This document shows positions 17,371 to 31,108 of a stretch of 64,000 nt of DNA, in pieces (the first letter of the stretch is position 1; each line of letters begins with the position of its first letter). Source of the stretch: Acidobacteriaceae bacterium (GTDB lineage Bacteria > Acidobacteriota > Terriglobia > Terriglobales > Acidobacteriaceae); contig PLDC01000005.1 of assembly GCA_003134995.1 (NCBI GenBank), positions 62,001 to 126,000 on the forward strand, in the 5' to 3' direction. Made by a program: the position numbers and the translations under genes. A model generated the notes under the pieces. The model ran no database searches and had not been told where the DNA came from. It worked only from the letters and a program-made list of their open reading frames with translations.

Positions 17371-18005
17371 AAGGAATCTCCGTGAGGTGCAGGCAAACAT
17401 ATGACGGTAGCAGGGGCGCGGGAGCGGGGTCAACGGCTGACGCGAAAGCGTCTCTCGGCTTGTTCGGCCTGAGTTATGAGCTCGCCTTGCTCCGCTCGGC
17501 GGACAGCCGAGGCGGCTCTCTCCACGTAAGCATTTCCCTCTCGAACCCTCAGGCACTTAGGTAAGCAGCTGGCGGCAACAGCCTTATGAACACTCATTGA
17601 GTTCGTTCAACGATTCCGTCCCCGGGAGTATGCAAATACCTGCATACTTTTTACCGAAATGCCCGAACCTTCCACAGTGTGCAATAACTTTCACCCTTGA
17701 CAACACTATTCCTGCACCGGAGAATGAGGAAGATTTCAACGGCGCTGGCAAGCCCCAGTCGCTGGATTTCCCCCTATCCTACGCGGCCGGAACACCGACA
17801 TTTGTCTGAGGGACAATTACGGTATGACTTGGACTACCCCGCAGTTCGAGGAGATTCAGTTGAACTGCGAGATCAATTCCTACGTCAGTGCGCGGCTATA
17901 ACTTTCTGCAGACAAGAGTGAAGGACGTATTAGCAGGCTTCAGCTGAGGCCAGGTTTTTCCCCCGCAATACAAGTCAGACTTGTCACTTGAAGGAGTTGG
18001 GGCTT
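17371..18005. other. Regulatory gap before the SGNH/Ig gene
   Basis: No gene is supported. It holds an 8-bp inverted repeat of the AGTATGCA motif (17627-17648) and a candidate promoter: TTGACA at 17697-17702, a 17-bp spacer and GAGAAT at 17720-17725. If used, that promoter leaves a leader of about 270 nt before the ATG at 18006. Confidence 0.4.
17627..17648. promoter_or_regulatory. Palindromic AGTATGCA site
   Basis: AGTATGCA (17627-17634) and TGCATACT (17641-17648) form perfect 8-bp arms around AATACC. Single copies of the same octamer occur upstream of other exported-protein genes in the window. Confidence 0.45.
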
Positions 18006-21000
18006 ATGGCCTTGAGCATGCACCGCATCTCGCGCGTCGTTTTGAATTCTCTCCTGCTGGCTGCACTCGCCACGATCGCCAGCACCGCCGCTCACGCCCA
18101 AAACCCAAACTGCCCCAACGGATCGGGAGAGATCTGTTCCGTACCGAGTTCGTGGACCTTCGCGAACACCTACGTCGGAAAAGCCAGCGGCAACAAGACG
18201 CTGACCATCTACAACAACACCAGCTCCGGCACGCTCTATATCGAGACGATTGCGTTTTCCTGCACCACCGGCTCCTCAGGAGATTGGGGCATCGCGTCCG
18301 GCACCGTACCTTTTCAGATGGGCCAAACGCAGACCCTCACCCACTATTCGATATTCTTTCAGCCGCACTCCGCCATCGCGGAGAGTTGTAACTTTGTGCT
18401 CACCATGCTGGATGGGTTCGTGCTGAACGTCCCAGTCACGGGCACGGGTTTAGCGACAACAGCGGCCTCAAGTTTGAGCGTGTCCTCGATGAGCTTTCCC
18501 AACCAGAGTGTGGGCACCACGAGCGCCGCGCAAACCGTGACGATCACCAACAACGGCAGCGCAACCTTGAATCTGGAAGCGATTAACATCGCGCCGCCAA
18601 GTTTCACGACCAACACTGTCACTTTTCCCTACGCCATAAAAGCCAATTCCAGCCTCACGCTTTCGGTTTATTACACTCCGAGCCAGGTTATCTCAGAAAC
18701 AGGCGTGTTGGATCTGGACTATGACGCCATTCCCGACAATGGCGTATCGCTCACCGGCAATGGCACTGCGGCCACTACCTTAAAAGTCGCTACCAACCCC
18801 ATGTTGCCGCAGGCCACGCAAGGCTATGCCTACGAAGCCGCCCTAACAACCAGCGGCGGCGTTGGACCTTATACATGGAGCGTTGCCTCCGGATCTTCGC
18901 TGCCTTCGGGACTCACTCTTTCCAGTTCCGGCGAGATCACAGGAACCGTCGCTTCAACAGTCGCGGTTGGCAGCTACCCTTTCACCGTTCAGGTTACAGA
19001 CACTTCCAACGGTGCGACGGCAACCAGTCTGTTGACCGTCGGCGTATATGCCTATCTCGGCGATGGCAACGGCGAAAGCTGCAACGATCTTTCATGGAAT
19101 GACCCTGTACTGAATACCCCGATGATCGCGATTACCGACCTTGGCACCGGCGAATTTGAAGGTCAGTACGAAGGTGGACTCTATCCCAATGGCAGCAACG
19201 TGCGGCCTTCCGCGCAGAACTCTTATGGCATAGGCCTCGCGGATGCGATTCAGCCCCTCAGTTCCACTGGCGCACCCGACCCTACCGGCAAGTACGTTTT
19301 CATGGCGATCGGGGAATCGACCGCGCAGAACGAATTTAACCGCTTCCTGCCTATCGCCAATGCCGATCCCACAAAGAATCCGAACCTTGTAATCGTCAAC
19401 GGAGCGCAGGGCGGAGCCACGCCAAACACTCTTACGAGCACCACTTCCGCGTATTGGACGACGGTGCTCGAAAATTATCTTCCGCAGAATAGCGTGACCG
19501 CCGATCAGGTCGTCGTCATTTGGATGGAAGACACCGACGGAATCGCCACCGGAACCTTCCCGACCGACATCACCAGCTTGCAGTCTGAGTACGAGACGCT
19601 GATGCAGACCATGCTCACTTTGTTTCCGAATCTGAAGATGGTCTATTTCTCGTCGCGAGTCTATGCCGGCTACTCCAACGGCCTGGCTACTCCCGATAAT
19701 CCTGAACCCTACGCGTACGAGGTCGGATACGCAGTGAAGTGGGCGATCGGCGACCAGCTCAACGGCAATGCGAATCTGAACTACAACCCGGCGGATGGTC
19801 CGGTAGTGGCGCCGTGGATGTCCTGGGGTCCCTACTATTGGTCGAACGGCATGCTCGGACGCAGCGACGGCCTGGTCTGGGATTGCGAAGATTTCTCATT
19901 CGATGGAACGCATCCCTCAACCTTCTTTGGTCAGTTGAAGGTCGCGACTCAATTGCTCCACTTCCTGAGAACCGACGTCACGACTGTACCGTGGTATCTG
20001 GCGCCAGTGTTGGGTCTCACCGCGACCGCCGGCAACAATCAGAGTGGTTACGTGGGCACGGCTCTGCCCACTGCTCTCAGCGTCCTCGCTTCGAATCTGA
20101 ACTCTGGCGTCGGGAACTCTGGAGTGAGCGTGAGCTTCAGCGATGGCGGCGTGGGAGGCAGCTTCAACCCACCATCGCCAGTAGTTACGGGCAGCAACGG
20201 AACCGCATCCACTACTTACACTCTGCCGCCCGCAGCCCAAACCGTCACCATCACCGCAAGCAGTTCCGGCTATACCTCAACAACATTCACCGAAACCGCG
20301 ACTTCGACCGGAGTCACACTCGCCCTCGCGGCCACCGGAGGCAACAACCAGAGCGGCGGCACCGGCACCACCCTGCCCACAGCGCTCCTCGTTACGGCAA
20401 CCAATAACGGCACTCCTGTCGCGGGCGTAAGCGTCACCTTCGTCGATAACGGAGCGGGAGGAACGTTCGGAACTCCAACCGTGGTTACGGGCTCGAACGG
20501 CACTGCCTCGAGCACATACACCCTGCCATCGACGGCGCAAACCGTGACCGTCACCGCCAGCAGTTCGGGTTATACGTCGGCAAATTTCACGGAAATCGCT
20601 GACACTCTCGCGCTCAGCCCCAATGGCGGCAACAATCAAACAGGCAGCGTTGGCTACGTTCTGCCGGTTGCTCTGACCGTGCTTGCGTCGAGTGACGGCA
20701 GCCCAGTCTCAGGACTCAGCGTCAGCTTCACCGACAACGGGGCCGGCGGGACCTTCGGCAGCCCAACCGCCACGACAGGCTCGAACGGCATCGCATCCTC
20801 TACTTACACTCTGCCGTCGACTGCGAAAACTGTCACCATCAACGCCACCAGCGCCAACTACACGTCGGCAACGTTTACCGAGACGGCCGCCACCTGCGCC
20901 ATGACCACAACCGCTGGCAATAACCAGAGCGGCATGGAGAGCACTACGCTACCCCTAGCGCTCTCAGCGGTAGCCTCGTGCAACGGCATTCCTGAATCCG

Positions 21001-21779
21001 GCGTGAGCGTCACCTTCAGCGACGGCGGCGCAGGCGGAACCTTTAGCACGCCAACCTCGGTCACCGGAACCAACGGCACCGCAACCAGCACTTACACTCT
21101 GCCGGCGAGCGTTGAAACCATTACCATCACGGCCACGGGCTCGGGCGGTTATGCGCCCTCGACCTTCACTGAAACTTCCACCCCAACGGTAACCAACATC
21201 ACGGGGGTTTCGGGTCAGAAGCAATCTGGAACAGTAGGATCTACGTTGCCGCTGCCCATCGTCCTCAAGGCCAAGAATGCTTCGGGGAAGGCCGTGTCGG
21301 GCGCTCCGATTACGTTCTCAGACTCCGGCCTGGGAGGCACGTTCTCCCCGAATCCGGCAATTACCGGTACCAACGGAGAGGCGAGCACTACCTTCACGCT
21401 TCCCACCTCCGCGAAGACCTTCGCCGTAAACGGCGCGGACGGCAGCGCATTCGCCAACGTGACCGAAACCTCGGTGGCCGACCCGGCCTCAATACTCGAG
21501 ATCGTCTCGGGCAACAACCAGCAAGGGCAGCCCAGCAAGGCGCTACTTAACAAGCTGGTCGTAAAGGTAACCGATCAGTACCAGAATCCGATCACGGGCG
21601 TAACCGTTACCTTCACCGACAACGGCGCGGGAGGAACGTTCTCCGCCACGAAGCCGGTAACGGGTACCAACGGTGAGGCTTCGGTTACCTACACCTGTGG
21701 AACGAAAACAGGTAAGGTAACCATCTCCACGACTACATCCACGCTGGGGCCTGTCAACTTCACGGAGACAGTGAAGTGA
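18006..21779 (+). CDS. Exported ASH / SGNH-like / Big-1 repeat protein
   Basis: The 1257-aa product has a signal peptide (to about residue 30, ending AHAQ). Two choice-of-anchor-D (ASH-like) domains follow (about 40-250), then a putative Ig (He_PIG-type) domain (about 258-340). Next comes an SGNH-hydrolase-like region (about 345-650) with GEST (S438), VIVNGAQGGAT and FDGTHPS (H636). Six Big-1-like repeats with cores such as FTDNGAGGTFGSP and GSNGxASSTYTLP end the protein. The SGNH-like part could cut esters on polysaccharide, but GES replaces the usual GDS. The start ATG follows AAGGAG by nine bases. A paralogue without the Ig repeats is at 28851-30800. Confidence 0.8.
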   Translation: MALSMHRISRVVLNSLLLAALATIASTAAHAQNPNCPNGSGEICSVPSSWTFANTYVGKASGNKTLTIYNNTSSGTLYIETIAFSCTTGSSGDWGIASGTVPFQMGQTQTLTHYSIFFQPHSAIAESCNFVLTMLDGFVLNVPVTGTGLATTAASSLSVSSMSFPNQSVGTTSAAQTVTITNNGSATLNLEAINIAPPSFTTNTVTFPYAIKANSSLTLSVYYTPSQVISETGVLDLDYDAIPDNGVSLTGNGTAATTLKVATNPMLPQATQGYAYEAALTTSGGVGPYTWSVASGSSLPSGLTLSSSGEITGTVASTVAVGSYPFTVQVTDTSNGATATSLLTVGVYAYLGDGNGESCNDLSWNDPVLNTPMIAITDLGTGEFEGQYEGGLYPNGSNVRPSAQNSYGIGLADAIQPLSSTGAPDPTGKYVFMAIGESTAQNEFNRFLPIANADPTKNPNLVIVNGAQGGATPNTLTSTTSAYWTTVLENYLPQNSVTADQVVVIWMEDTDGIATGTFPTDITSLQSEYETLMQTMLTLFPNLKMVYFSSRVYAGYSNGLATPDNPEPYAYEVGYAVKWAIGDQLNGNANLNYNPADGPVVAPWMSWGPYYWSNGMLGRSDGLVWDCEDFSFDGTHPSTFFGQLKVATQLLHFLRTDVTTVPWYLAPVLGLTATAGNNQSGYVGTALPTALSVLASNLNSGVGNSGVSVSFSDGGVGGSFNPPSPVVTGSNGTASTTYTLPPAAQTVTITASSSGYTSTTFTETATSTGVTLALAATGGNNQSGGTGTTLPTALLVTATNNGTPVAGVSVTFVDNGAGGTFGTPTVVTGSNGTASSTYTLPSTAQTVTVTASSSGYTSANFTEIADTLALSPNGGNNQTGSVGYVLPVALTVLASSDGSPVSGLSVSFTDNGAGGTFGSPTATTGSNGIASSTYTLPSTAKTVTINATSANYTSATFTETAATCAMTTTAGNNQSGMESTTLPLALSAVASCNGIPESGVSVTFSDGGAGGTFSTPTSVTGTNGTATSTYTLPASVETITITATGSGGYAPSTFTETSTPTVTNITGVSGQKQSGTVGSTLPLPIVLKAKNASGKAVSGAPITFSDSGLGGTFSPNPAITGTNGEASTTFTLPTSAKTFAVNGADGSAFANVTETSVADPASILEIVSGNNQQGQPSKALLNKLVVKVTDQYQNPITGVTVTFTDNGAGGTFSATKPVTGTNGEASVTYTCGTKTGKVTISTTTSTLGPVNFTETVK

Positions 21780-21873: not shown

Positions 21874-24321
21874 TTGAATTGTTATCGTTTGTCGAAGGCG
21901 CTCGGCGCCGTCGCGATCCTGTCCGTGCTGTCATTGACGGTGTGTTTTTCCCGAGCTTCCGCTCAGGTGAGCGTGCTCACCAACAAGTATGACAACTCAC
22001 GCGACGGACAAAACATCAGCGAAACCCTGCTCACTTCCGCGGATGTAAACTCCAATCAATTCGGTAAGCTCTTCGCCTTCAGCGTTGATGGCTACGTTTC
22101 GGCCCAGCCCCTTTACATGTATGCCCTGACCGTCAACGGAGCCACGCACAACGTGGCTTTCGTCGCCACCGAGCATGACAGCGTGTTTGCCATTGACGCC
22201 GATACCGGCGCTTTGCTCTGGCAAACCAGCCTTCTCTATCCGGCTGGCGCGACCACTGTAACCATGGCAGTGCAAGGCTGTAGCGGCGTTACGGGATTGA
22301 ACGAAGTTGGAATTCTGGGAACGCCAGTCATCGACCCCACCAGCGGAACTCTTTACGTGGTCGCGAAGACGGCACTCTCGGGAACTTATTATTTCTATCT
22401 GCACGCACTCGATGTCACGACCGGCGCCGAAATGTTCGGAGGTCCCACTCCGATCAGCGCCACCGTCGGAACCTTGACCTTCACCGTCAAGAACCAGCTC
22501 CAGCGCCCAGCTTTGTTGGAATCGAATGGCAACATCTTCATCGGATTCGGATCGAACGGCTGCGACTTGAACGCTCGCGGCTGGCTGTTCGCCTACAGTG
22601 CTTCCACGCTGCAGCAATTAGCCGTCATGACCATGCAGCCCGATAACAACTACGGCAGCTCGATCTGGCAAAGCGGCGTCGGCCCCTCCGCAGACGGCGC
22701 AGGCAATATTTATATTTCGACCGCAAACGGCCTCTTTGATTTTGGCGACAACATTTTCGATCTCGGCGATAGCCTGCTGCAGTTGCAACTCGGCGCCAGC
22801 GGTTTCACCGTCGCGGATTCTTTCACGCCCTTCGATCAGTCCACTCTAGCCGCCGACGATATGGACATGGGCTCCGGCGCCATGACTCTTCTTCCGCCGC
22901 AAACCACTGGCGCTTACCCGAATCTGCTGGTCACCGCCGGCAAGCGTGGCGACATTTACCTGATCAATACCGACAGCATGGGCGGCTACAGCACGGCCAG
23001 CAATTCCCAGATTCCTCAATACATTCCTGGCGCACTCGCCGAGTACTATCATGGCAGCCCTTTGTACTGGAACAACGGCACCGACTCCCTCGTGTACTTT
23101 CTCTCGCACGGAGATTATTTAAGATCGTATTCGCTGGCGAATGGCGCGCTCACGGCCTTCGGACAGACGACGAGCAAGCTGACCACGTACGGACTTCCCG
23201 AAGTTTCTTCCAACGGAACCAGCAACGGCATTGTGTGGCTCGTGCAAAATGTCAGCAACGTTCCGCTGCTCTCCGCCTATGACGCGACTGCGCTGTTCCA
23301 GCTCTACAATTCCGGCCAGGCATCGGGCGGCCGCGATACGTTAGGCACGGTCACGCATTTCGCCACTCCAACCGTCGCGAACGGAAAAGTGTATGCCGGC
23401 ACGCAAACGCAGCTCGCGGTTTATGGATTGTTTCCCGACATCGCTGTCACTGCGGGCAACGGCCAGACTGGCGCCGCAGGCACGGCGCTGCCCATAGCGC
23501 TCACGGTCACTGCGAACAATCCTTACAGTGGCGCGGTGCTTCCCGGCGTGAATGTAACCTTCAGCGATGGCGGCAAGGGTGGCGTTTTCAGCAATCCCAC
23601 AGCAACCACTGGTAGCAACGGCGTAGCTACAACCACGTATACATTACCGAAGACTCCAAAGACCGTTACGATAACGGGCTCAAGCACGGGCTATGCCTCT
23701 GCAATTTTCACCGAGACCAGCGTGGTTGGTCCGGTGGCATCGCTCAGCACGATCTCAGGCAGCAAACAAGTTGGGACTGTCGGAACGACTCTGCCCAACC
23801 CCATCGTGGTGAAGGCCAAGGATGCGGTCGGAAACTTGGTCTCGGGTACGTCGATTTCGTTCAGCGACGGCTTCGGCGGAACGTTCAATCCGAACCCCGG
23901 CATCACCGGCACGAACGGTGAAACCAGCACCATGTACACCCTGCCCACGGTAGCGAAGGCACTCACCGTGACCGCGCAGGATGGAACCATCAGCCTGAAG
24001 ATCACGGAGAATTCCACTCCGGCCAGCCCAGCCCTCACGAACATTATTCAAGGCAACAACCAGTCCGCGAATCCCAACAACAAGTTGCCGAAGACTCTGA
24101 TCGTATCGGTGACTGACCAATACGGAAATGGCATCTCAGGCCTAACCGTGAACTTCACCGACAACGGAGCGGGAGGCACATTCAGCAATTCGGCGCCCGT
24201 AACCAGCACCATCGGCGAAGTCACCGTGACCTACACCACCGGATCGCAAGCCGGCACGGTAACCATCGACGCGACCTATGGCAGCCTATCGCCAGCAGTC
24301 TTTACCGAAACCGTGAAGTAA
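21874..24321 (+). CDS. Exported PQQ-like propeller with Big-1 repeats
   Basis: The 815-aa product has a signal peptide ending near FSRASAQ. A PQQ-like beta-propeller follows (about residues 30-510; AFVATEHDSVFAIDADTGALLWQ is a typical blade), then three Big-1-like Ig repeats. The final repeats closely resemble those ending the upstream protein, and both proteins close with FTETVK. No enzymatic motif was seen, so a binding or scaffolding role is likely. The TTG start at 21874 follows GGAGGAGG by five bases. It lies 94 bp behind the SGNH/Ig gene on the same strand and may be co-transcribed with it. Confidence 0.78.
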   Translation: MNCYRLSKALGAVAILSVLSLTVCFSRASAQVSVLTNKYDNSRDGQNISETLLTSADVNSNQFGKLFAFSVDGYVSAQPLYMYALTVNGATHNVAFVATEHDSVFAIDADTGALLWQTSLLYPAGATTVTMAVQGCSGVTGLNEVGILGTPVIDPTSGTLYVVAKTALSGTYYFYLHALDVTTGAEMFGGPTPISATVGTLTFTVKNQLQRPALLESNGNIFIGFGSNGCDLNARGWLFAYSASTLQQLAVMTMQPDNNYGSSIWQSGVGPSADGAGNIYISTANGLFDFGDNIFDLGDSLLQLQLGASGFTVADSFTPFDQSTLAADDMDMGSGAMTLLPPQTTGAYPNLLVTAGKRGDIYLINTDSMGGYSTASNSQIPQYIPGALAEYYHGSPLYWNNGTDSLVYFLSHGDYLRSYSLANGALTAFGQTTSKLTTYGLPEVSSNGTSNGIVWLVQNVSNVPLLSAYDATALFQLYNSGQASGGRDTLGTVTHFATPTVANGKVYAGTQTQLAVYGLFPDIAVTAGNGQTGAAGTALPIALTVTANNPYSGAVLPGVNVTFSDGGKGGVFSNPTATTGSNGVATTTYTLPKTPKTVTITGSSTGYASAIFTETSVVGPVASLSTISGSKQVGTVGTTLPNPIVVKAKDAVGNLVSGTSISFSDGFGGTFNPNPGITGTNGETSTMYTLPTVAKALTVTAQDGTISLKITENSTPASPALTNIIQGNNQSANPNNKLPKTLIVSVTDQYGNGISGLTVNFTDNGAGGTFSNSAPVTSTIGEVTVTYTTGSQAGTVTIDATYGSLSPAVFTETVK

Positions 24322-24360
24322 ATCAGTAGGGACAGATCCTGCGGAGATAGGCTCGTGTAG

Positions 24361-24382
24361 GGACGGACGCATTCGTCCGTCC
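24361..24382. terminator. Hairpin between convergent genes
   Basis: GGACGGACG-CATT-CGTCCGTCC is a perfect 9-bp stem between the stops of the convergent genes at 24321 and 24399. No strong T-run follows on the plus strand, so it is either a weak bidirectional terminator or a dispersed palindrome. Confidence 0.5.
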
Positions 24383-24398
24383 AGGCGCAACTGCCAAC

Positions 24399-25133
24399 TT
24401 ATTTTTCTCGCGCAGGTAAAACGCGGCCGAGGGCTGCCTCCAATTGGTCAGGCTTAAAGCCAAACGGTCCGGGTCTGCTCTTGTAGGCGACGCGGCCTTG
24501 CGTGTCGATGAGGTAAATGCGGTCCGGCCAGCCTGTATACGCTTGTTCGGTCGAGTTGCCGAACTCGTCAAGCACCGCCGGAAGCTCAAGGGCGAGCTTT
24601 CGAACGCAGGTTCCGGCGATGAACGCGCGATCTTCTTCCGTTTTCGGGCTCGCAAAAACGACTTTCTCTTTGATGTTGCTCTCCATCTGCCAAACGTCAC
24701 TGGGATGCGCCTCTGTAATATAAACGACCAGAAAAGCGGCACGATCGCGATACTGCCGGTAGAGCTTGTTGAGTGCGGGAGCCTCCCGCCGGAACGGCGG
24801 TCAGGTGTAGCTTCCGAATACCAGCACCACCGGTTGTCGTTGGTTTAGGAGGGAGAACTGAACCCGCTCGCTCTTGTCCACTTTGAGCAGGGAGAAGTCC
24901 GGCGCCCGATCTCCCACATGCAGGCCTCCCGCACGCGCGTGGATCCACAATGTTTCAAACGGGAACAACATGAAGACGACGGGGCCAGGCATTTTCGCCA
25001 TCACTCGGCCGAAGGTCTCAGGAGTCTGGCGCATCGCCCACCAGATGTACGCTCCGAAACAGGCATAGGCAATTGCCAGCCCGAGTAGAAGCCGGATTAG
25101 GAGCCTGCGAACGAATGGACTTGGCTTCAGCAT
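24399..25133 (-). CDS. Deiodinase-like selenoprotein with in-frame UGA
   Basis: One frame runs from ATG 25131-25133 to 24399, interrupted only by TGA at 24801-24803. Read as selenocysteine (U111), it gives 244 residues of the iodothyronine-deiodinase family: a membrane anchor (about 10-33), GDRAPDFSLL, VLVFGSYT-U-PPFRREAPAL, FLVVYITEAHPSD, then GWPDRIYLIDTQGRVAYKS. Animal deiodinases carry Sec exactly at this point in FGSxTUPPF, and homology runs without a break across the codon. Bacterial members have a thioredoxin-like fold and no proven substrate. The ATG directly follows the TAA of the TonB receptor gene, so translation is probably coupled. Alternative: a cysteine codon mutated to TGA. 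Sec machinery is not in the window. Confidence 0.85.
24775..24803 (-). promoter_or_regulatory. Candidate bacterial SECIS after UGA
   Basis: In the mRNA, bases 12-26 after the UGA form GCGGG-AGGCU-CCCGC, a 5-bp GC stem with a loop containing GG at positions 18-19. This fits the spacing expected of bacterial SECIS elements. A competing stem CCGCC-GUUCC-GGCGG starts directly after the UGA. The fold was judged by eye only. Confidence 0.55.
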
Positions 25134-28100
25134 TTAAAAGAGAAACTTCAGCGCGACCTGGATCACGCGTGGGCTGACATCCGACTGGATTTGCCCGAAG
25201 GTCGGCGATTCGATGTCACTCACCGGCAGACGGAAATTCGTATGGTTGAGCACATTGAACAACTCTCCGCGAAATTGAAGTTCTTTTGATTCTGTCAGAC
25301 GAATATTCTTGAACGCGGAGAAGTCCCAGTCCACGTATCGCGGACCCAGCACGGCGTTGCGGCCTTCGTCCCCAAACTGTTCGACTGGAGAATTTGGGTC
25401 CTGAGTAATTGCTTGAAACGCTTTCACGTTGAACCATTCGGCCGCAGTGCGCGGTCCGGAATTTGGATTGCCCACTACGTTGGGGCGATTGCTGGAAAAT
25501 CCCGAAATCTCCGGCGCTTGCCCCTGCAGCGAAACGTCGTTCGAGTCAAACACTGTGAAAGGTGTTCCGCTCATCGCCGTGAAAATTCCGTTCAACTGCC
25601 AGTTGCCAAAAACCTTTCCGTACCAGCTACTCGAGTGCTGCAAGAACGGAAGGCTCCACTGGTAACTCAACACGAGGCGATGGCGGGCATCAAACATGGA
25701 CGGGCCGCGCTCGGCCACGAGATCAAAGGGATTCTGCGCCAGATCATTCTCACCTGCTACAGGCTGCGAGGCCGATCCCGTGATGTTGAACGAAGAGACG
25801 TCGTCGATCGAGTGCGACCACGTATAAGACGCGAGAAATGACAGGCCGTGGCTGAAGCGCTTGCGCAGGCTGGCCTCCAGCGCGTTATAACTGGAGTTCG
25901 CGACGCTGGCGATCTCGCCCACCGAACCGTAAATGCAACTCGACGGCGGGTCCGCCAAGGTGCATCCGGAATACAGGCGCCGGTTATTTACATTATTTTC
26001 GGTGGAGATTGGACAAGGGCTTGCCACCGAGCAGCCAGCGCTGGTCGTATCCACTCCGGGATAATAGACCGCTGGATCGCCTTCAATGAATCGCGGCAGT
26101 CTCACGCCGGTGGTGCCGACATATCCGACTTGAAGTAGCCAGTCCGTGCCGAAGGAATGCTGAATATTCAGATTCCAATCCTGCGCGTAAGGCAGATGCA
26201 GATTGCGCGAGACCACAAGCAACGTCATGGGTTCGGGGAATGGCACTCCGAAGGGATCTGGAGAATAAAACGGATTGGCAAATGAGTTGATGGGAAATCC
26301 TAACTGGAGCGTCTTCAGATACGGAGGCGCGCTGACCGGGTCCTGCAGTGGGCCGCCTTCGCCCGTGTAGTAGGGCTCATAGAAAATTCCGTAAGCCGCA
26401 CTCACCACGGTCTTGGCATCGCCGCGAGGATCCCAGGCAAAGCCGAAGCGCGGAGCAAACGCTGTTTTCTGCGTTGGAATCAATCCCGCAGGGACGCCCG
26501 GATCGCCCGGATACAGTAGTCCCGCCGGGGCGTTGGGAATCACTTGCGACTGCGCTCCCGGAACAAAGAGATTCACCTCGTTATGGTTCTCGGTGGAGGG
26601 AAACGGGAGTTCCCAACGCAATCCCATGTTCAAGGTCAGGCGAGGTGTGACCTTGTAATTATCCTGGGCGTAAGCGTCGAGGGCTCGATCGCGAATTTCA
26701 CGGGCAAAATTTCCGCCGCCTTGCAGAAAGACAACTGGATTGCCCGAAAGATAATTGGCAAAACCGTCGTTGTAGAGGAAGTCCTCATAGGAGGGGATGC
26801 CGGCGAATACAAAAAAGCCATTGGTGGCGATGCCCTGCAATGCATTGATCTGGTCGCGCCGGTAGCCGCCGCCAAATTTGAATTCGTGGCGGCCGTGCAC
26901 CCAACTCAAAGAGCCAGAGACATCGAATGTATTTTGATACGTGTTGCGCGGACCGGTAATAGGGTCGCCCACCGAAGCGTAGCCGCCGACCTGGATAAAC
27001 GGCGGTCCCGCGGCTGAAGGCAGCGTGGGAGCGTACTGAAAACCAAAATCCGCAGGCGATTCATGGTTTAGGTGCTCATCCAGTAAAAACGTATTACGCA
27101 GAAAAGAAAAGCGCGCGACGCCGATGGTGGTGGGCGAAAAGATGTGCGTCTCTTGCGTTACGAAGTTTTGCGCGCGGTCGTACTCGCCGACCGGAAAGCC
27201 TGGGACGTTGGCGCCCACCGGCGAAAGAGGGTCGGTGGTTGGACCGCTGCTATACATGTAGCGGAAATTCAGATTGTCCGCGCGGGTAAGGTAATGATCG
27301 AGCCGCACTCCGAATTGATTGTTGTTCTCGCTTAGAGTTTGCGTGGCGATGAATCCATTCTCTCCAACGTTTGGCGAAGGGAAAAACGGCAAGACATTTG
27401 CAGCGACCGGATCGATGGGAGTGACCAGCGTCATCTGGTTGAATGGCACCGGCTGTCCAAAAAACGTCAATTGCCCCGCGGGGTTGCTGCACATACCGGA
27501 GGTCGGGTCGATGGTCGCTCCGATGGAGGTGCACAGCTCGGCGAAGTTGCCCGTCTTCTCGTCCGCGGAGGGCACGGTCGCGGGAACGGTTTCACCCTGC
27601 CGGTTGCGGAAGCCCTCGTAATATCCGAAGAAAAAAGTTTTGTCCTTAACAATCGGCCCGCCGAAGGTGGCGCCGAACTGGTTCTGCTTCAAAGGCTGAA
27701 CGCTCTGCGTGAAGTAGTCGGAAGAATCCATCGCATCGTTGCGCAGAAATTCCCAGGCGGCGCCATGAAATGAATTGGATCCGGAGCGAGTGACGATATT
27801 GGTGGTCGAGCCGGTGTTGCGTCCGAACTCCGCATTCGCGTTATGGCTGAGAATTTTGAATTCAGCAATCGCGTCAATTGGCGGCTTGAAAACGAAGCCT
27901 CCGTCGACTGAGCTGACGTTATCTGCGCCGTCGATCAGAAAATTATTCGACTCTGGCCGTTGCCCATCGACGGCGTAAGCCTGGTTCTCGCGGGCCGGAC
28001 CGCCAGCTTCGAGCAGTCCGGGAGTCAGGGGTACGACGCCGGGCTGAAGCAATCCCAACTGAGAAAAGTTGCGTCCATCGAGCGGGAGGTCGAGAATCTC

Positions 28101-28547
28101 GCGCTCCATCACAGTCTGCCCAAGGCTGCTGACCGTGCTTTGCACGAGTGCAGCATCCGCGCTGACTTCAACTTGCTGCGACTCCGCGCCAAGCTTGAGT
28201 TGAATGCTGACCGTCGCTGTTTCGTTGACATCCAAAGAAATTCCTTGCCGCAAGTACCTCTGGAAACCTTTGGCCTGAACCTCCAATTGATAATGCCCGA
28301 TCGGAAGTTCGACCAGCACGTACTCTCCCTGATGGTCGGTGACTGCCACTCGCGTCAATCCGGTTTCGATCTGCTTTGCAGTCACAGATGCCGACCGGAC
28401 AATCGCTCCGCTGGGATCGATCACGGTTCCGCGAATGCCTGCCGTGATTTGCTGTGCGGCTAGATTTACGCTTACGAGGTTGAAAACGGCGACGATTGGC
28501 AAAAGTACGAACAGGCGCTTCCTCATACCGCTCACGCATTTCCCCAT
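25134..28547 (-). CDS. Oar-like TonB-dependent receptor
   Basis: The 1137-aa outer-membrane protein has a signal peptide (to about residue 32). A carboxypeptidase-regulatory-like domain follows (about 35-125: ITAGIRGTVIDPSGAIVRSA, ending QVEVSADAA), then a plug (LPLDGRNFSQLGLLQPGVVP, DGQRPESNNFLIDGADN). The large beta-barrel ends in the aromatic terminus VIQVALKFLF. This is the expanded Acidobacteriota type of TonB receptor, thought to import large or complex nutrients; the ligand is unknown. The ATG follows GAGGAAAA, and a good promoter lies at 28651-28678. The next gene starts at the base after its TAA. Confidence 0.9.
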   Translation of the reverse strand: MGKCVSGMRKRLFVLLPIVAVFNLVSVNLAAQQITAGIRGTVIDPSGAIVRSASVTAKQIETGLTRVAVTDHQGEYVLVELPIGHYQLEVQAKGFQRYLRQGISLDVNETATVSIQLKLGAESQQVEVSADAALVQSTVSSLGQTVMEREILDLPLDGRNFSQLGLLQPGVVPLTPGLLEAGGPARENQAYAVDGQRPESNNFLIDGADNVSSVDGGFVFKPPIDAIAEFKILSHNANAEFGRNTGSTTNIVTRSGSNSFHGAAWEFLRNDAMDSSDYFTQSVQPLKQNQFGATFGGPIVKDKTFFFGYYEGFRNRQGETVPATVPSADEKTGNFAELCTSIGATIDPTSGMCSNPAGQLTFFGQPVPFNQMTLVTPIDPVAANVLPFFPSPNVGENGFIATQTLSENNNQFGVRLDHYLTRADNLNFRYMYSSGPTTDPLSPVGANVPGFPVGEYDRAQNFVTQETHIFSPTTIGVARFSFLRNTFLLDEHLNHESPADFGFQYAPTLPSAAGPPFIQVGGYASVGDPITGPRNTYQNTFDVSGSLSWVHGRHEFKFGGGYRRDQINALQGIATNGFFVFAGIPSYEDFLYNDGFANYLSGNPVVFLQGGGNFAREIRDRALDAYAQDNYKVTPRLTLNMGLRWELPFPSTENHNEVNLFVPGAQSQVIPNAPAGLLYPGDPGVPAGLIPTQKTAFAPRFGFAWDPRGDAKTVVSAAYGIFYEPYYTGEGGPLQDPVSAPPYLKTLQLGFPINSFANPFYSPDPFGVPFPEPMTLLVVSRNLHLPYAQDWNLNIQHSFGTDWLLQVGYVGTTGVRLPRFIEGDPAVYYPGVDTTSAGCSVASPCPISTENNVNNRRLYSGCTLADPPSSCIYGSVGEIASVANSSYNALEASLRKRFSHGLSFLASYTWSHSIDDVSSFNITGSASQPVAGENDLAQNPFDLVAERGPSMFDARHRLVLSYQWSLPFLQHSSSWYGKVFGNWQLNGIFTAMSGTPFTVFDSNDVSLQGQAPEISGFSSNRPNVVGNPNSGPRTAAEWFNVKAFQAITQDPNSPVEQFGDEGRNAVLGPRYVDWDFSAFKNIRLTESKELQFRGELFNVLNHTNFRLPVSDIESPTFGQIQSDVSPRVIQVALKFLF

Positions 28548-28850: not shown

Positions 28851-30800
28851 CTAGTGCTTGCGAATATTGGCGGCGCCGGGTGCGAGATACCAGGGCGTCG
28901 CGGTTTCGTCGGTCTTTAGGAACTGCAGTAGCTGGGTAGATACCTTTAACTGACCGAAGGTGGAGGATGGGTGGGTGCCGTCGGCGGAGAAATCTTCGCA
29001 ATCCCACTCGAGGCCGTCTGCCCTGCCCAGCATTCCGTTGGCCCAGTAGTACGGACCCCACGCCATCCAGGGGGCCAGGATGGGCGAGCAACCGTTGTAA
29101 CCATCGCAAAGGTTGGCGTTGCCGTTGAGCTGGTCTCCGATAGCGTTTTTCACAGCGTAGCCCGCTTCGAACGCGTAAGGCTCGGGATCGTCGGGATCGA
29201 CCAGGCCATTGGAAAAGCCTCCGTAGACGCGCGAAGACCAGTACATCAGCTTCACGTTCGGGAAGTTGGTGAGCACGTCTTGCGCGAGAGTTTCATACTC
29301 GGCCTGCATGGTGGTCATATCTGTGGGGAAGGTTCCGGTCTTAATCGAGTCCGTATCTTCGATCCAAACAGCAACTACCTGGTCGGGAGTTACTCCGTTT
29401 TGCGGGAGGTAGTTATTGAGGATCGTGGACCAGTAATAGGAACTGGAACTCACGAACTCGTTGGGCGTTGCGCCGCCCTGCGCTCCATTGACGATCACCA
29501 AGTTAGGATTCTTCTCGGGATCAGAGTTGGCGATTGGAAGGAATCGGTTGAACTCGTTCTGCGCGGTGGATTCGCCGAGCGCGAGCAGAACATATTTTCC
29601 GGTCGGGTCAGGCTGGCCAGTGGAACTGAGAGGCCCAATGCTCTGCGCCAAACTCAACCCGTAGGCATACTGAGCCGAGGGATAAACGTTGGCGCCGTCG
29701 GGGTACAAGCCACCTTCTTCGCCCTCGTAGGTTCCGGTGCCGAGATCAGTAAGAGCCTGAATCGGCGTTGATGTGCCGGCAACATCCCACGAGAGATTGT
29801 TGCAGCTGTCTCCCATGTTAGCGTAAACGCCGAGGGTGAACGTCTTCTTGACGGTGTTGGGCTTGGAGCCCTTCACTTGGATCGAGAAGGTGTAGGTTCC
29901 CGCCTGAACGCTGGAAGCAAGTGTGCCGCTGATTACACCGGCGCTCGAAAGAGTCAGACCGGAAGGCAAGGTCGTACCGCTAGCCATGCTCCAGGTAAAT
30001 GGCCCGGTTCCTGAACTCGTGGTCAGTGTGGCTTCGTATGCGGCCGAGGCGGTTGCCTGGGGCAAGGTCGCGTTTGTAGCAATCGCAAGCGACTTTGCGG
30101 CTACTCCGTTGCCTGAAATGCTCACGCCATTATCTGGAATCTCGTTATAAGTAAGGTCGATGTTGCCGGTCTCGGATGTGATTCGGCTCGGACTGTAGTA
30201 GACCGAGACCGTGAGGCTGCCGCCCTTCGCGATGGAGTAAGGCAGTGTGATGGCGTTAGTGGTGAAATCGGCCGGTGAGATGGTAATCGTATTCAGATTG
30301 ATGCTGGCGTTGCCGGTATTGGTAATAGTGAAAGTCTGGGCGACGCTGGTCGATCCAACTGCCTGATTGGGGAACGACAACGAAGTTCCACTCAGGCTTA
30401 CCGTTGTCTGGGGTGCCAAACCGGTTCCGGTCAAGGGCACGTTCACCACGGTCGAGTCTGACATGGTGATGACGAAGTTGCAGTCATAAGACTGGGCCGC
30501 GAGCGGCTGAAAGAATATGGAGTAGTGCGTGATGTCGCCGGGCTTGGCCAGAGAAGTGGGAGCGACTCCGGAAGATATTCCGTAGCCCGCGCAGGAGAAG
30601 CCGACGGTATTAATGATCGCGGCTCCTGACTTTTGTATGTTCGTGATCGTGAGTACCTTGGAGCCGGTCACCTTGCCAACATAGGTATTGGCGAAGCTCA
30701 ACGAACCGGGGCTGGAGGAAACATCCTGGCCGATGGCCGGTAGTACCGCTGCCAAACTCAACAAGAAACCCACAACCGCGGTCGACAGAGTGCGTTGCAT
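28851..30800 (-). CDS. Exported ASH / He_PIG / SGNH-like protein
   Basis: The 649-aa product is a paralogue of the first 655 residues of the protein at 18006-21779. It has a signal peptide (to about 28, ending PAIGQ), two ASH-like domains (SLSFANTYVGKVTGSKVLTI; SLSFPNQAVGSTSVAQTFTI) and an He_PIG-type Ig domain. An SGNH-like region follows, with ALGESTAQNEFNR, LVIVNGAQGGATPNEF and DGTHPSSTFGQLKVSTQLLQ. It stops where its relative begins the Big-1 repeats, so it is the catalytic unit alone. The ATG at 30798-30800 follows AGGAGC. A terminator lies just downstream and a candidate promoter at 31109-31136. Confidence 0.8.
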   Translation of the reverse strand: MQRTLSTAVVGFLLSLAAVLPAIGQDVSSSPGSLSFANTYVGKVTGSKVLTITNIQKSGAAIINTVGFSCAGYGISSGVAPTSLAKPGDITHYSIFFQPLAAQSYDCNFVITMSDSTVVNVPLTGTGLAPQTTVSLSGTSLSFPNQAVGSTSVAQTFTITNTGNASINLNTITISPADFTTNAITLPYSIAKGGSLTVSVYYSPSRITSETGNIDLTYNEIPDNGVSISGNGVAAKSLAIATNATLPQATASAAYEATLTTSSGTGPFTWSMASGTTLPSGLTLSSAGVISGTLASSVQAGTYTFSIQVKGSKPNTVKKTFTLGVYANMGDSCNNLSWDVAGTSTPIQALTDLGTGTYEGEEGGLYPDGANVYPSAQYAYGLSLAQSIGPLSSTGQPDPTGKYVLLALGESTAQNEFNRFLPIANSDPEKNPNLVIVNGAQGGATPNEFVSSSSYYWSTILNNYLPQNGVTPDQVVAVWIEDTDSIKTGTFPTDMTTMQAEYETLAQDVLTNFPNVKLMYWSSRVYGGFSNGLVDPDDPEPYAFEAGYAVKNAIGDQLNGNANLCDGYNGCSPILAPWMAWGPYYWANGMLGRADGLEWDCEDFSADGTHPSSTFGQLKVSTQLLQFLKTDETATPWYLAPGAANIRKH

Positions 30801-31108
30801 AGTAGCTCCTGTATTCTGGTTATCCATTTCTCTTATGCGCAGATTCTTCTGTATGCAGATCTCTCATCTTTATTAGGCGAAGAACCGGGTGTCATAGTGA
30901 CAGACGGAATCCACACATGCTTGGTTCAAGATGGCAGGCACACACGAAAAACAGACATTCCTAGGTACTTCAAAAAGAAACCTGGTAATTCCGACGGACG
31001 ATCTCGCAACTCAACCGCGCCTTTGAACGGCTCTCTGGGTCAGCAGGGTTGAAGGAAAACCACCCGATCTAGCGTTACTCCTCGGGGGGATGAGGAGATC
31101 GTGGCGCT

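Follow-up and report, generated by a model that had tools for sequence, protein, structure and literature searches.

Results

Gene and reading frame

The window analysed here is the whole 64,000-nucleotide stretch from contig PLDC01000005.1 of an Acidobacteriaceae genome (assembly GCA_003134995.1). Its minus strand carries a gene of the deiodinase-like family in which a single in-frame UGA codon very probably encodes selenocysteine (Sec), followed by a hairpin proposed as a bacterial selenocysteine insertion sequence (SECIS). The features of the gene are as follows.

24399..25133, minus strand: deiodinase-like gene, putative selenoprotein of 244 residues with Sec at 111 and a TAA stop (PF00837 match)
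25032..25118, minus strand: predicted N-terminal transmembrane helix, model residues 6-34, with basic residues N-terminal of the helix
24423..24923, minus strand: catalytic thioredoxin-fold domain, residues 71-237 (PF00837 and predicted structure)
24801..24803, minus strand: in-frame UGA, putative Sec111, in a TGA/Cys column aligned with the DIO2/DIO3 active-site residue
24775..24789, minus strand: putative SECIS hairpin, stem GCGGGA/UCCCGC with GG in the loop (covariation, synonymous constraint, stability peak)
24705..24722, minus strand: Tyr138, Glu141 and His143, proton-relay residues of deiodinases, on the edge of the loop specific to those enzymes (kept in all 132 Sec forms and all 20 Cys forms)
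24606..24608, minus strand: Cys176 at +65 relative to Sec, with no further cysteine in the catalytic domain; candidate resolving Cys by its conservation pattern

An earlier note on this DNA had described one minus-strand frame interrupted only by the TGA at 24801-24803, and re-reading positions 25133 to 24399 gave exactly this: 244 sense or UGA codons followed by TAA, with the TGA as the sole internal stop. The flanking residues that the note quoted, VLVFGSYT before the stop and PPFRREAPAL and FLVVYITEAHPSD after it, are present. The readthrough protein matches PF00837 (T4_deiodinase) over residues 71-237 (8.1e-31, 107.6 bits, curated cut-off 27). The standard code splits the gene into pieces of 110 and 95 residues, and ordinary gene calling will therefore truncate it.

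An open frame beyond a TGA is weak evidence by itself, because 36 TGAs in the window, the one discussed here included, are preceded by at least 100 and followed by at least 60 open codons. No other Sec motif was recognised by eye among these 36 positions, for which no family search was made. The claim that the TGA is a Sec codon and not a nonsense mutation consequently stands on other grounds than the reason first given for it, the 133 intact codons that follow: it is carried by homology on both sides of the TGA and by comparison among relatives.

Comparison of homologous loci

We assembled 159 loci: 18 from a search of close-relative genomes, 11 from named records and 130 from a search of 399 genomes that sample the class. 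Class-search places in G154, G234 and G127 (one TGA each) and in G166, G341, G365, G292 and one place in G313 (no TGA) were left out. The homologues are related to one another, and the counts and codon statistics below are not independent events. The codon at position 111 is TGA in 137 loci, TGC in 11 and TGT in 10, with one gap; neither a sense codon other than Cys nor TAA or TAG occurs there in the 159 loci. Every readable row of the alignment that the earlier note had called for therefore has TGA or Cys. Removal of five duplicates leaves 132 distinct Sec rows, and 20 true Cys forms remain once a misaligned partial sequence (L123, a TGC row) is set aside. The catalytic residues of mouse DIO3 and DIO2 align with the window TGA.

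Beyond the window genome, the close-relative search yielded 16 deiodinase-grade copies (E 2.5e-31 or better, unbroken), each with exactly one TGA; judged by their scores, the weaker matches are other thioredoxin-like proteins. The situation that the note had named as damaging, relatives all with Cys and this strain alone with TGA, is thus not what is found. The ratio of nonsynonymous to synonymous substitution rates (dN/dS) to the nearest relative is approximately 0.07 before the UGA and 0.05 after it, and the latter value indicates that the half of the gene downstream of the UGA is under purifying selection. The gap in the alignment belongs to a gene copy in a 17th genome (L016, G026:C66) whose frame is broken near the active site, which may be an assembly error.

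The hairpin downstream of the UGA

A GC-rich hairpin with GG in its loop, reported in the note 12-26 nt past the UGA, indeed folds at 24789-24775, which gives the window gene a hairpin just past the UGA with a G in a small apical loop, as expected of a bacterial SECIS element. Across the 132 TGA sequences the six-pair stem has standard pairs in 82% of cells, compared with 49-61% when one strand of the stem is shifted by 1-3 bases, and the commonest loop is AGGUU (95 of 132 rows). The third base of Arg(+5) is the most informative position, because changes there leave the protein unaltered: G faces C in 82 sequences, C faces G in 37, and one sequence has a mismatch (n = 120). Codon choice in the hairpin is likewise distinct from that elsewhere in the same genes. 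Glu(+6) is GAG in 91 of 91 cases (53% elsewhere), Gln(+6) is CAG in 32 of 32 (75%), Val(+7) is GTT in 96 of 126 (17%) and Pro(+8) is CCC or CCT in 83 of 84 (50%).

In a separate test, the protein was held fixed and the codons were redrawn in every second of the 132 rows (n = 66). The native RNA at codons +4 to +11 is on average 5.3 kcal/mol more stable than the redrawn RNA, compared with differences of -1.23 to +0.88 in control windows starting at codons -32 to -8 or +6 to +97. Taken across homologues, these comparisons show RNA-level selection on the hairpin.

Selenocysteine-decoding machinery

The window genome (5.62 Mb in 29 contigs) contains all four components of Sec decoding for which the note had proposed a search: tRNA-Sec (72.3 bits; called by ARAGORN as tRNA-SeC with anticodon tca), SelB (353.5 bits), SelA (529.8 bits, with its neighbours in the frame) and SelD (372.6 bits). 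A lack of selB and tRNA-Sec, which would have spoken against the Sec codon, is therefore not seen. SelD (L061, G000:C14) is itself likely a selenoprotein, with an in-frame UGA within ...AAGUASK....

In the 399 class genomes, tRNA-Sec was detected in 265 (E<=1e-11) and a TGA-containing deiodinase-like match in 115, counting one (G129) that also contains TAG and TAA. Both occur together in 100 of the 115. One of the remaining 15 gains a tRNA-Sec at a looser threshold; SelB was matched in 13 of the 15, and in 11 of these the score exceeds the curated cut-off. No TGA-containing match was found in 165 of the 265 Sec-decoding genomes, and Cys forms are found in Sec-decoding genomes too (e.g., G251 and G304). 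TGA-containing matches extend beyond the class to other genomes of the phylum. The 11 named records encoding close relatives all come from Acidobacteria, Terriglobia or Terriglobales/Acidobacteriales bins, relatives by which the window genome would belong to Terriglobia.

Several genomes deserve separate mention. G436 (rated 100% complete), G421, G336 and others have SelB and a TGA match, yet no tRNA-Sec was detected in them at E<=1e-9, perhaps because an unusual one escaped the search. The match in G306 (L164, G306:C3:26880-30428) lies about 0.9 kb downstream of selB on the same strand, with the end domain of SelB confirmed and an IclR-type regulator on the side away from selB; no tRNA-Sec was found in this genome, which is 98% complete. 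Contig G055:C2 has two tRNA-Sec matches about 3.6 kb apart.

Alternatives to a selenocysteine codon

A recent nonsense mutation or a sequencing error in a pseudogene would look identical in one genome, where it too would leave a lone stop in an otherwise open frame. The presence of the same TGA at the same codon in 137 of 159 loci, the purifying selection past it and the SECIS-level constraint lead us to reject this explanation as hardly credible. Decoding of the UGA as another residue, by a suppressor tRNA or by recoding to Cys or Trp, is very improbable in view of the complete Sec machinery, the SECIS element and the exchange of Sec and Cys at the catalytic residue.

Some observations do tell against a Sec codon read with the help of this hairpin. 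On the window sequence by itself the hairpin is unremarkable (-10.3 kcal/mol, z -1.8, with 12 of 200 shuffles folding equally well), and for this reason the SECIS case rests on the comparison across homologues. The window loop, AGGCU, occurs only once in the 132 rows; in 11 rows no more than three of the six pairs in the model form, and most of these rows can by eye form a register-shifted hairpin (L064, L088 and L018 types); and an Rfam search of 24300-25200 gave no match at E up to 5. Finally, tRNA-Sec was not found in 14 of the 115 class genomes with a TGA-containing copy. SelB was matched in twelve of the 14, with scores that fall just short of the curated cut-off in G306 and G240, and the two genomes with neither are 80% (G238) and 59% (G381) complete. 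Weighing all of this, we are highly confident that UGA111 is a Sec codon and that the product is a true selenoprotein belonging to the deiodinase-like family.

Protein layout and active site

The product is predicted to have a single hydrophobic helix near its N-terminus and a domain with the deiodinase fold. The highest 19-residue hydropathy in the window protein is 1.95, starting at residue 12, and among the 121 homologues whose in-frame upstream sequence is long enough, 108 have a hydrophobic N-terminal segment (start codons were not fixed). Basic residues precede the helix, from which, by the positive-inside rule, the catalytic domain is probably periplasmic-facing.

The predicted structure has the deiodinase fold with its specific loop, and among solved structures DIO3 and DIO2 are the nearest in both sequence and fold, ranked above the thioredoxin and peroxiredoxin rows. 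The motifs GSxTUPPF and YIxEAHxxDxW, the latter including the deiodinase-specific loop, are kept, with Trp148 in 126 of 132 Sec forms. Ser108, Thr110, Tyr138, Glu141 and His143 are invariant in all 132; the relay residues given for DIO2 in excerpts of PMC11592359 are Ser127, Thr129, Tyr157, Glu160 and His162. The label "deiodinase-like" thus holds for the family, the fold and most of the active site.

Within the 125 residues after Sec, one further Cys is found in 118 of the 132 Sec forms, two in 12, four in one and none in one, the last being gapped at column 176. The commonest arrangements are a Cys at +65 alone in 79 forms, at +48 alone in 32, at both +59 and +65 in nine and at +50 in four. 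All ten Cys forms with the motif GSY(T/S)CPN have the +65 Cys, nine of them with no other; the remaining ten have a Cys at +67 in one case and none in nine, and seven of these nine have the motif GSxTCP(F/M/Q)TA. The pattern suggests a Sec/Cys redox pair whose partner Cys is placed differently, at +65 or +48, in two subfamilies. Five of the eight Cys-form proteins scanned (L105, L106, L108, L112 and L116; 474-566 aa, with GSY(T/S)CPN) have the Cys-containing deiodinase-like domain behind long TPR arrays, an architecture unlike that of the window Sec form.

Gene neighbourhood and phylogeny

25134..28547, minus strand: TonB-receptor-like outer-membrane protein, upstream neighbour only, its TAA abutting the ATG of the selenoprotein gene (TAAATG)

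When 16 loci were compared, the window among them, five had a homologue of this TonB-receptor-like protein upstream, and in three of the five it is close to the gene. Another neighbour set is shared by three or four of G001, G002, G004 and G007; the neighbours in G007 match VWA, DUF2207 and HD/GAF families. Given the five of 16 loci and the differing sets elsewhere, we rejected a reading of function from operon context. The gene is also flanked in the window by two long Ig-domain-type proteins (17988-21779, plus strand, and 28851-30827, minus strand) with near-identical stretches such as VNGAQGGATPN, which by eye look like inverted paralogues.

A tree was made by a quick method from two mouse rows, 80 of the 132 Sec rows (after thinning at 80% identity and removal of short rows) and 18 of the 20 Cys rows, which group together (support 83, not starred). 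The animal rows join the branch that separates two bacterial Sec groups, with 97 on either side, an attachment that neither puts animals inside bacteria nor roots the tree. Only 16 of 97 inner branches are starred and 43 are open, and we accordingly take no further inference from the tree.

Discussion

Known relatives

Bacterial deiodinase-like selenoproteins were, as the earlier note stated, known before: excerpts of Zhang et al. 2005 (PMC1088965) describe both Sec and Cys forms from the Sargasso Sea, together with a bacterial SECIS. The window protein is like these in its PF00837 domain, the UGA at the catalytic position and a SECIS whose small apical loop contains G; the excerpts concern four marine Sec sequences, whereas the family appears here in 115 of 399 genomes of an Acidobacteriota class. 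A 2008 marine survey, as excerpted, lists deiodinase-like selenoproteins without a partner-Cys motif (PMC2398784). Excerpts of reviews from 2022 (PMC9312934) and 2026 (PMC13188914) give the PF00837 motif as UxxC, which does not fit the present set, with its UPPF and remote Cys, because position +3 from Sec is Phe in 131 of 132 forms (Tyr in one). The word deiodinase is absent from the excerpted text of a 2006 survey, which reports four selenoproteins of three families in Acidobacteria (PMC1794560), and we found no earlier report of a deiodinase in Acidobacteria or Acidobacteriota in the literature searched. On this comparison the window gene is another representative of an already-described family, in a lineage where the family proves common.

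Possible function

In the excerpts, both PMC1088965 and PMC13188914 leave the function of prokaryotic deiodinase-like proteins open. Our best reading is a membrane-anchored, probably periplasmic, Sec/Cys redox enzyme. The Sec111 selenolate would attack an electrophilic substrate with the assistance of a Ser108-Thr110-Tyr138-Glu141-His143 proton relay; Cys176 would resolve the oxidised selenium to a selenenyl-sulfide, which a periplasmic thiol reductase would then reduce. The likeliest substrate class, and a fairly probable one, would be a peroxide, a disulfide or a similar oxidised compound. A carbon-halogen bond is a bolder option that we hold unlikely, dehalogenation by the window protein being possible.

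That the protein is a Sec peroxidase or thiol-disulfide reductase sharing only the fold with deiodinases seems to us somewhat probable. The single further Cys of most Sec forms, the +65 Cys of the GSY(T/S)CPN Cys forms and the presence of ResA, Bcp and AhpE among the next structural rows all point this way. Peroxiredoxins have the motif PxxxT/SxxC. Compared with AhpE and Bcp/PrxQ, the window protein lacks this motif, although Ser108 fits at -3: the position of its Pro, residue 104 (-7), is L, V, I or M in 132 of 132 Sec forms. Nor does the protein have the CxxC or UxxC of ResA-type thiol oxidoreductases, position +3 being Phe or Tyr throughout and Cys being absent at -2 of the Sec forms (Tyr, Phe or His instead). 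It differs from both groups in its deiodinase EAH loop, and an invariant Glu/His relay is not a known feature of peroxiredoxin or thiol-disulfide reductase families. The ranking of DIO3 and DIO2 as nearest structures and the conserved motifs, relay and Trp148 favour a true reductive dehalogenase, in which, as in animal deiodinases, Sec would take I, Br or Cl from an aromatic compound and the relay would donate the proton. We nevertheless consider such an enzyme unlikely. The column equivalent to His182 of DIO2 is Pro in 105, Ala in 21 and His in only one of 132 forms, with His one column on in five; the charged residue before GP (Lys241 in DIO2, Arg275 in DIO3) is Pro in the window and 78 of 132 rows, with neither Lys nor Arg among the six commonest states; and the Cys forms, some of them TPR-fused, keep the same Tyr, Glu and His. 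Zhang et al., as excerpted, expected the function to differ, since thyroid hormone does not occur in bacteria, and called a redox function possible (PMC1088965).

The two active-site substitutions just described also count against our best reading, which has further difficulties. The position of the further Cys varies, 14 of 132 Sec rows have none or more than one, and nine of 20 Cys forms lack it, so that its role is unproven; the gene neighbours are not conserved past the closest relatives. The animal DIO1-3 proteins differ further from the bacterial ones: DIO1 and DIO3 have a proximal Cys at -2 (Ala in the DIO2 chain), the second relay His is not kept here, and the animal SECIS lies in the 3' untranslated region whereas the bacterial SECIS lies within the coding region.

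These results supply a set of homologues in which a SECIS element may be followed through visible covariation at synonymous sites. They also lead us to a more speculative proposal, which we regard as rather doubtful: the Acidobacteriota family could consist of membrane-anchored, probably periplasmic, Sec-dependent reductive dehalogenases of aromatics, the functional counterpart of the thyroid-hormone deiodinases. If so, the animal proton relay would be combined with a different resolving Cys, placed at +65 or +48 according to subfamily. With 137 TGA-coded loci that keep most of the animal active site, halogen removal by bacterial relatives becomes directly testable.
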